From the NCBI GenBank assembly GCA_947259645.1, contig CAMYND010000008.1:1-51631 (forward strand): a stretch of DNA of 51,631 nt. The letters are read 5' to 3'. A model generated the notes under the pieces. That model saw only the letters and a list, made by a program, of their open reading frames with translations. It did not search any database and was not told the DNA's origin. This document shows positions 628 through 20,800 of the stretch, in pieces. Both the position numbers and the translations under genes were made by a program. The first letter of the stretch is position 1; each line of letters begins with the position of its first letter. Origin of the DNA: Thermodesulfovibrionia bacterium. GTDB lineage: Bacteria; Nitrospirota; Thermodesulfovibrionia; UBA6902.

Positions 628-636
628 TGCTATAAT
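628..636 (+). promoter_or_regulatory. extended -10 promoter of the small selenoprotein candidate
   Basis: TGCTATAAT is a perfect -10 hexamer with the TG extension, 27 bases before the ATG at 664. No good -35 is seen, as is usual for extended -10 promoters. Confidence 0.6.
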
Positions 637-663
637 GTTAGCCTTAAGTAATAGGAGACGTAC

Positions 664-831
664 ATGAAGTGCAAGAAATGTAAGGGCAGGTTAAACTTAA
701 AGATAGGCTGAAAAAGCGTACAGTTACGCTGCATGGAGTGCAGCATGAGCTATTCAATTGAAGAATATATTCATGAACTGGACGCCGGATCATGGGAACA
801 GCTGTCACAGCGCACGTGCGACAGGGCTTAG
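664..831 (+). CDS. small dual-CXXC (seleno)protein with in-frame UGA at codon 16
   Basis: Reading from ATG 664 gives 15 codons, an in-frame TGA at 709-711, then 39 more open codons to TAG at 829-831. A CXXC (CKKC, residues 3-6) lies before the UGA and a second CXXC (CMEC, residues 24-27) after it, followed by SYSIEEYIHELD and a late Cys. This is the plan of the family annotated as dual CXXC motif small (seleno)protein, where the position in IG-U-K is Sec or Cys. AGGAG at 653-657 is six bases from the ATG. A hairpin with its apical loop 22 bases after the UGA fits a bacterial SECIS. The function is unknown; a redox or metal-binding role is plausible. SelA, SelB, SelC and SelD would have to be elsewhere in the genome. 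A plain pseudogene with a nonsense mutation is the alternative. Confidence 0.72.
715..748 (+). promoter_or_regulatory. candidate bacterial SECIS hairpin
   Basis: Directly after the UGA (709-711) lie two alternative perfect 6-bp hairpins. AGCGTA/TACGCT pairs around CAGT (715-730). GCTGCA/TGCAGC pairs around TGGAG (728-744), and this stem extends by three more pairs past one mismatch. The second apical loop starts 22 bases after the UGA and has G at its second position, which agrees with the usual bacterial SECIS pattern of a small G-containing loop 16-37 bases downstream. Confidence 0.55.
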
Positions 832-19132: not shown

Positions 19133-19798
19133 ATGGACGCGAATACTATTAAACAACTGATCATATCTGTTCCTGCATTGATCCTCGCCATAACTATTCA
19201 TGAAGTCTCTCATGGATATGTTGCGAACAGGCTTGGTGATCCGACAGCCAAACTCCTGGGAAGACTTACGCTCAACCCCATTAAACATATTGATCCGGTT
19301 GGAACGATCATTATGCCTATTGCACTGTACTATATGTCTGGAGGTCAGTTTATATTCGGGTACGCAAAGCCGGTACCGATTAATCCTTCCAACTTTAAGA
19401 ACCCTAAAAAAGGCATGGCCATATCTGCCGCAGCAGGGCCCATAACGAATATCCTGCTGGCGATCGCAAGCTCGGTGCTTCGGATGATCATCATGCTTTT
19501 ACTTTCAATGTTCCCCGATAGCGGTATAGCGAACGCTGTACTTATCCCCCTTACGCTCATGCTGGGATACAGTATCTTTATCAATATTTTTCTCGCAGCA
19601 CTAAATTTAATACCGGTCCCGCCTCTGGACGGCGGCAGGGTTCTCACAGGAATGCTTCCGTATAACATGGCAATAACGTACAGCAAGATTGAGCCCTACG
19701 GATTTATCATTCTCATAGCACTTATTTTTACCGGAGCAGCAAAATATTTTATTTATCCAGTCGTCAGCGCACTATATTTACTTGTCCCGTTTATATGA
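19133..19798 (+). CDS. site-2 protease family (M50) membrane metalloprotease
   Basis: The 221-residue polytopic membrane protein has the zinc-binding HEVSH (His23, Glu24, His27) in the first helix and NLIPVPPLDGGRV with the third ligand Asp166. Intramembrane proteases of this small class lack the PDZ domain of RseP and their substrates are mostly unknown. No ribosome binding site is seen; TACAAT at 19117-19122 suggests a very short leader. Its stop abuts trpS, giving the frequent M50-trpS pair. Confidence 0.92.
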   Translation: MDANTIKQLIISVPALILAITIHEVSHGYVANRLGDPTAKLLGRLTLNPIKHIDPVGTIIMPIALYYMSGGQFIFGYAKPVPINPSNFKNPKKGMAISAAAGPITNILLAIASSVLRMIIMLLLSMFPDSGIANAVLIPLTLMLGYSIFINIFLAALNLIPVPPLDGGRVLTGMLPYNMAITYSKIEPYGFIILIALIFTGAAKYFIYPVVSALYLLVPFI

Positions 19799-19816
19799 TT
19801 GAAAGGAGAAGCACAG

Positions 19817-20800
19817 GTGTCTAAGAAAATCGTTCTCAGCGGAATTCAACCAAGCGGTAACCTTCATATAGGCAACTATATCGGAGCGTTACAAAACTGG
19901 GTGAAAATTCAGGATGAGTTTGACTGTTACTATTTCATTGCGGACTGGCATGCCCTCACGTCGCAATATGCTGACACATCGCAGATCAAGGAATATGTGC
20001 GTGACGTCCTTGTTAACTGTCTTGCAGCCGGCCTTGACCCGAATACATCAACCATCTTTCAACAGTCCCGGATTCCGGAACATGCTGAGCTTCACCTACT
20101 CCTCTCTATGATGACGCCGCTGGGGTGGCTTGAACGCGTTCCGTCTTATAAAGAAAAACAGCTGGAAGTAAAAGACAAAGACCTGAACACCTACGGTTTC
20201 CTCGGGTATCCTTTGCTTCAGTCCGCTGATATTCTGATATACAGGGCCCATTTTGTTCCTGTCGGCGTTGACCAGATGCCTCACCTTGAGATTACCCGGG
20301 AAATCGCCAGGCGGTTCAACAATTTTTATGGTGAAGTCTTTCCCGAGCCTGACGGGCTGTTGACAAAGTTTCCAAAGGTTGTCGGCACTGACGGCAGAAA
20401 AATGAGTAAAACCTACGGCAACTGCATCTTTCTCTCTGACTCCCCGGAAGAAGTTGAACAAAAAATCAGAACCATGACAACTGACCCTCAAAGAATCAAG
20501 CGTACAGACGCGGGCAACCCTGAGCTTTCTCCGGTATATCAGCTGCACAAGGTTTTTTCGTCGAGAGAGGAGCAGGCCGAAGTGGCCAAAGGCTGCCAGA
20601 CAGCCGGGATCGGCTGCATAGACTGCAAGAAAATACTGATTAAAAATGTGCTCACCCTTTTAGAGCCTGTCTGGGAAAAACGCCGGGTCTACCTTGCTGA
20701 TCCTGACCTGCTTGAAGACATTATAAGAACCGGATCTGAAAAGGCGCGGGTTGCAGCTGTCAAAACCATGGAGCATGTCAGAGAAGCAATGGGGTTATGA
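19817..20800 (+). CDS. trpS: tryptophan--tRNA ligase
   Basis: The enzyme charges tRNA-Trp. The 327-residue product starts with GTG at 19817, which has AAGGAG eight bases upstream; the in-frame TTG at 19799 lies before that site and is rejected. The class I signatures are HIGN (residues 17-20) and KMSKT near residue 195. GVDQMPHLEITREIARRFN is the usual segment near the active site. It follows the site-2 protease gene closely. Confidence 0.96.
   Translation: MSKKIVLSGIQPSGNLHIGNYIGALQNWVKIQDEFDCYYFIADWHALTSQYADTSQIKEYVRDVLVNCLAAGLDPNTSTIFQQSRIPEHAELHLLLSMMTPLGWLERVPSYKEKQLEVKDKDLNTYGFLGYPLLQSADILIYRAHFVPVGVDQMPHLEITREIARRFNNFYGEVFPEPDGLLTKFPKVVGTDGRKMSKTYGNCIFLSDSPEEVEQKIRTMTTDPQRIKRTDAGNPELSPVYQLHKVFSSREEQAEVAKGCQTAGIGCIDCKKILIKNVLTLLEPVWEKRRVYLADPDLLEDIIRTGSEKARVAAVKTMEHVREAMGL

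Follow-up and report, generated by a model that had tools for sequence, protein, structure and literature searches.

Two described selenoproteins stand closest to the gene analysed here, and both are placed in the family NF041197 by a 2026 review (PMC13188914): OS_HP3, cited there to 2007 (Zhang & Gladyshev, from the Olavius algarvensis Delta 1 symbiont), and 'hypothetical protein DW', cited there to 2025. The latter comes from the deep-Sep work on Desulfosarcina widdelii and Desulfosarcina sp. BuS5, in which a SECIS-like structure and Cys homologues were reported (PMC12013277). The gene at positions 664-831 of the window (the whole stretch of 51,631 nucleotides that was analysed) therefore adds a member to a family that is catalogued already and was described in the 2007 and 2025 papers. 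A preceding sequence-only reading of this DNA had held that ordinary annotation would miss or split such a gene; this needs qualifying, as NCBIfam has a family model and the review lists the family twice. OS_HP3 shares the family assignment made by the review but differs from the window copy in its motif (RxU against KIGU, compared by published motif and not by sequence) and in its host, a deltaproteobacterium and not a member of Nitrospirota. 'Hypothetical protein DW' shares the assignment, the SECIS-like structure and the Cys homologues, and its GxU motif, likewise compared by motif and not by sequence, is like that of a second subfamily described below.

Direct reading and translation place the gene on the forward strand, from ATG at 664 to the stop codon TAG at 829-831, with an in-frame UGA at 709-711. 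The 55 codons before the TAG specify a 55-residue product, which with UGA read as U is MKCKKCKGRLNLKIG-U-KSVQLRCMECSMSYSIEEYIHELDAGSWEQLSQRTCDRA; Sec is residue 16 and lies between two CXXC pairs at residues 3-6 (Cys3-Lys-Lys-Cys6, positions 670-681) and 23-26 (Cys23-Met-Glu-Cys26, positions 730-741). A Shine-Dalgarno sequence, AGGAG, is located at 653-657 (+), 6 nt 5' of the ATG. The UGA dividing the gene, the Shine-Dalgarno and the CXXC on either side had all been proposed from the sequence-only reading and are borne out. An extended -10 promoter element had been proposed as well, and TGCTATAAT can indeed be read at 628-636 (+), as a motif reading only, because a sigma-70 two-hexamer scan lists no site there.

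In a profile search the readthrough product matched NCBIfam NF041197.2, "dual CXXC motif small (seleno)protein" (CxxC_Se_CxxC), at 59.6 bits against a cut-off of 40 (E 2.5e-16), so that the name given to it earlier was right. The alignment is full-length (profile 1-52 of 53), and the two sequences are alike in both CXXC pairs, in the Sec/Cys position that these flank and in their size of about 53 residues, with columns C3, C6, C16, C23 and C26 invariant. No feature setting the window copy apart was found, and it is an ordinary member of the family. A Pfam search of the window protein gave no real match. Membership in the Trm112 family was considered and rejected, the NF038101 score being 15 bits (E 0.02) against a cut-off of 77 bits. 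Taken with the comparative sequence evidence, the gene is almost certainly a selenoprotein of NF041197.

Profile searches detected the family in 82 of 101 relatives and in 0 of 14 control genomes, and each of the matches carries one in-frame TGA. Most of the 19 relatives without the gene have selB, and the gene is therefore dispensable. Wider sampling recovered the family in 152 of 396 genomes of a phylum-wide sample and in 111 of 395 genomes from the phylum of locus L170, which belongs to a Deltaproteobacteria-titled record. About half of the listed matches from a DNA pattern scan for family loci were chance matches and were removed by the HMM; among those listed, the matches that passed were nearly all Nitrospirota-titled, many of them Thermodesulfovibrionia. 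The family is common in Thermodesulfovibrionia and is present also in other anaerobes.

Read with the standard table 11, the UGA would be an ordinary stop at which a 15-codon peptide ends, and the frame from ATG 733 to 831 (32 aa), the only piece of the gene region to appear in the open reading frame listing, would be noise or a separate small ORF. Several observations make this highly improbable. The UGA is kept in every family match among the relatives, both parts jointly match a single curated family, and a protein-coding signature is seen before and after it: differences from the 25 nearest copies at codon positions 1/2/3 amount to 74/56/221 on the upstream side of the UGA and 240/122/479 on the downstream side, a similar bias from which it follows that both sides evolve as protein. 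In TGA-free homologues the UGA column is occupied by Cys (TGC or TGT), precisely aligned, and these copies form one uninterrupted ORF. The column is TGA, TGC or TGT in the 112 Sec and 8 Cys Nitrospirota copies among the matches listed, a set whose collecting pattern admitted solely a stop or Cys there; profile-based matches, which carry no such demand, have Sec or Cys at this position wherever the full match aligned. By parsimony, six Sec/Cys switches are counted over 171 sequences. The comparison strongly supports the selenocysteine reading of the codon.

Downstream of the UGA, a hairpin GCUGCAU-GGA-GUGCAGC occupies positions 728-744 (+), with a stem of 7 bp beginning 16 nt and a loop, GGA, lying 23 nt after the UGA. 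Its folding energy is -8.6 kcal/mol and it fits the bacterial SECIS model as in PMC13188914. A hairpin with a G in its loop had been placed 22 bases after the UGA, which is close; the structure and its loop stand, with the distances amended to those given here. Of 2310 TGA triplets counted over the two strands of the whole window, just 1.2% have an equally stable model hairpin downstream. The bare minimum free energy of the region is unremarkable (z -1.35 against dinucleotide shuffles, not significant), and the hairpin is credited because of comparison.

As the hairpin overlies the stretch that codes for the second CXXC (R-C-M-E-C-S), each copy was compared with 200 synonymous recodings made with local codon usage, a hairpin being scored at -4 kcal/mol or better. 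Among recodings of the window copy, 2% form a hairpin as stable. Across the matches listed, in counts that are not independent because the sequences are related, the model hairpin is found in 93% of the 112 Sec copies against 26% of their recodings, and in 12% of the Nitrospirota Cys copies (1/8) against 11% of theirs. Judging by codon choice, the constraint is carried by the third positions of the Cys23 and Cys26 codons: in the listed Sec copies TGC is used at Cys23 in 107/112 and at Cys26 in 108/112, against 77/112 at Cys3 and 60/112 at Cys6, while the listed Cys copies use it in 4/8 and 3/8 at Cys23 and Cys26 respectively. Loci of the L170 phylum have the model hairpin in 26 of 29 Sec copies versus 5 of 23 Cys copies. 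Among the matches listed, a single Nitrospirota Cys copy has a strong hairpin, of -8.2 kcal/mol (L106, in G234), and it appears to have switched recently. An independent-pair test on the tree for hairpin loss with Cys, which had only 2 supported pairs, was not significant.

Decoding of the UGA as some other amino acid (e.g. Trp), or by a near-cognate tRNA, is still less probable than an ordinary stop. The replacement seen in TGA-free homologues is Cys, many genes of the window terminate in TGA with just a short extension, a tRNA-Sec with UCA anticodon is present, and the Sec forms keep the hairpin beyond what the protein's coding requires, most Nitrospirota Cys forms being without it. For the selenocysteine reading, selA, selB, selC and selD were all found in the same genome: selA at C11:33698-35041 (615 bits) with selB adjoining on C11 (369 bits), the tRNA-Sec on C83 (72.4 bits), and selD on C94, which has a single TGA in frame, within KAGG-U-AAKLGP. 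With Cys found at the UGA column and this machinery present, neither of the two outcomes that the earlier reading had named as refuting it has occurred. This selD (L310:1531 in the host genome, G000) is itself a selenoprotein gene, with a SECIS-like model hairpin of -7.4 kcal/mol.

The machinery was also compared in six Nitrospirota genomes that hold the Cys form. G234 and G283 are without selA and show no selB or tRNA-Sec over the cut-off. G285 has selA and selB as pieces only, with a tRNA-Sec remaining. These three have lost or are losing the machinery and carry the Cys form, which links the codon to the machinery in what amounts to a natural experiment. In G285 the selA/selB pieces lie at C105:4711-5083 and C97:8709-9711, the tRNA-Sec still adjoining the selA remnants, and its Sec machinery is apparently caught during loss with the protein already in the Cys form. 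Two further genomes (G215, G278) have the Cys form, yet keep selA, selB and tRNA-Sec, and G367 has it with selA and selB kept and no tRNA-Sec seen over the cut-off. Conversely, G091 (99% complete) and G003 (91%) have the UGA form with no selB found over the cut-off, perhaps owing to assembly gaps; counter-examples of this type to the link are few. The gene itself was to be expected, and the useful part is the comparative evidence together with this natural experiment. Retention of the gene with Cys16 in lineages that have lost or are losing the Sec machinery suggests that the chalcogen at position 16 is what is under selection. Because the gene is kept as the Cys form where the machinery is lost or being lost, the function of this widespread family is directly addressable through Sec16, Cys16 and Ser16 versions of the protein.

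An AlphaFold2 model of modest confidence (pLDDT 77.5, pTM 0.52) gives strands at residues 9-14, 19-23 and 29-31 followed by two helices, with a strand-turn-strand whose first turn holds residue 16. Foldseek matches to it are mostly zinc ribbons and fingers, the best at E 0.24 and none with E <= 0.001; the PDB search likewise yielded no more than weak likenesses to ribbons. Residues 3, 6, 16, 23 and 26 are invariant in alignments A1 and A2, and each CXXC is a predicted zinc knuckle. On this predicted fold the two motifs resemble the ligand pairs of a zinc ribbon more than they do redox CXXC motifs; the earlier reading holds as to family, Sec, SECIS and machinery and is qualified in this respect. 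ZifS TTHA0897 (8yoz), Rpc10/Rpb9, the topoisomerase I ribbon and Trm112 have two CXXC knuckles and a beta-hairpin like the predicted model, with no significant sequence or structure match to it, and to our knowledge none of them is a selenoprotein. Sec16 is flanked as IG-U-KS, outside any CXXU redox motif. A thioredoxin-like CXXU protein was considered and rejected, there being no CXXU/UXXC-type motif and no thioredoxin-fold match among the structural and sequence matches listed.

Beyond these positions, Tyr35 and Trp44 are invariant in A2, whose collecting pattern required Tyr and Trp there, and Arg50 and Arg54 are nearly invariant in the alignments. Cys52 occurs in 97 of the 112 Sec copies and is replaced in 15, and it is replaced in 4 of the 8 Cys copies, in both cases among the matches listed; it could be a resolving partner that is not obligatory.

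As to how the protein would be made and work, SelB would carry Sec-tRNA to the UGA at 709-711, guided by the hairpin at 728-744, to yield a product of 55 residues. One zinc ion is most likely held by Cys3, Cys6, Cys23 and Cys26, all of them invariant, and the model suggests a zinc ribbon whose selenol is exposed; Sec16 would sit as a reactive group at the hairpin turn between the two knuckles and may pair with the C-terminal Cys52 as a selenenylsulfide. As a best guess, the protein is a small zinc ribbon whose reactive selenol at the β-hairpin turn serves as a redox or metal/electrophile-responsive centre. It may be a small soluble thiol/selenol switch or adaptor reacting with an oxidant, an electrophile or a soft metal; a redox or electrophile switch role is put forward tentatively, with somewhat less than even confidence. 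The boldest form of the proposal, a zinc ribbon with a lone reactive selenol outside CXXU that may act as a redox-, electrophile- or metal-sensing adaptor and in which each observed switch has retained either Sec or Cys, is unlikely; if true, the lone-selenol zinc ribbon would be a selenoprotein type with a new function.

The same residues may be understood differently, with Sec as an extra metal ligand or a metal-trafficking site (for soft metals such as Hg and Cu) and not a redox switch. The invariance of all five Cys/Sec positions, with Cys or Sec at 16, agrees with such a site, as does the absence of a CXXU motif, and the variable Cys52 suits a site without need for a resolving Cys. No metal-handling neighbours were recognised in the contexts examined, and within the selenoprotein reading this role appears possible but less likely than not.

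Gene context bears on another explanation. The gene is followed by rplM (940-1374), rpsI (1391-1783) and then argC and argJ, as recognised from sequence, and about 15 of the 60 Nitrospirota loci examined likewise have it directly ahead of rplM-rpsI; other copies adjoin rpsT-, gltX- and aspS-like genes. These placements, together with weak matches below threshold to Trm112 (15 bits, the cut-off being 77), S27e and RPC10, would suit a translation-linked zinc ribbon associated with nucleic acids or the ribosome. Almost all of the rplM-rpsI cases belong to the window's own family, however, in which the order through argC and argJ mainly recurs; neighbours differ between families as generic housekeeping genes, and sub-threshold matches of this kind are expected of any zinc ribbon. 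The translation-linked role is accordingly judged improbable. Neighbourhood clustering of 60 + 40 loci found no operon partner common across families, and since copies outside the window's family have unrelated, housekeeping-like neighbours, the context is silent on function.

Some further observations were made along the way. In seven loci from several Nitrospirota families (L084, L085, L089, L091, L115, L120 and L121) the next downstream gene encodes a small cysteine-cluster protein, recognised by eye as YkgJ-like. At 19133-20800 of the window, a site-2-protease-like gene ending in TGA is followed in the same frame by a trpS-like gene with no stop between, most likely two neighbouring in-frame genes. 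The phylum of L170 holds a second, diverged selenoprotein subfamily (L289-L292, L294, L295, L302 and L303) with a pattern like CxxCGGxAxIxGxUAxAxVxCxxCGxxxPA, which resembles the GxU of 'hypothetical protein DW'; it is often co-resident with the first form in one genome and falls mostly under the NF041197 cut-off. Lastly, a TATAAT-like box ending 4-11 nt before the ATG, with no Shine-Dalgarno, is present in 34 of the 102 family members (L041, L093, L118 and L184 among them), about a third of members as against some 7% of long ORFs in flanking loci, an arrangement that suggests leaderless mRNA in these members; the window copy has its Shine-Dalgarno instead of such a box.
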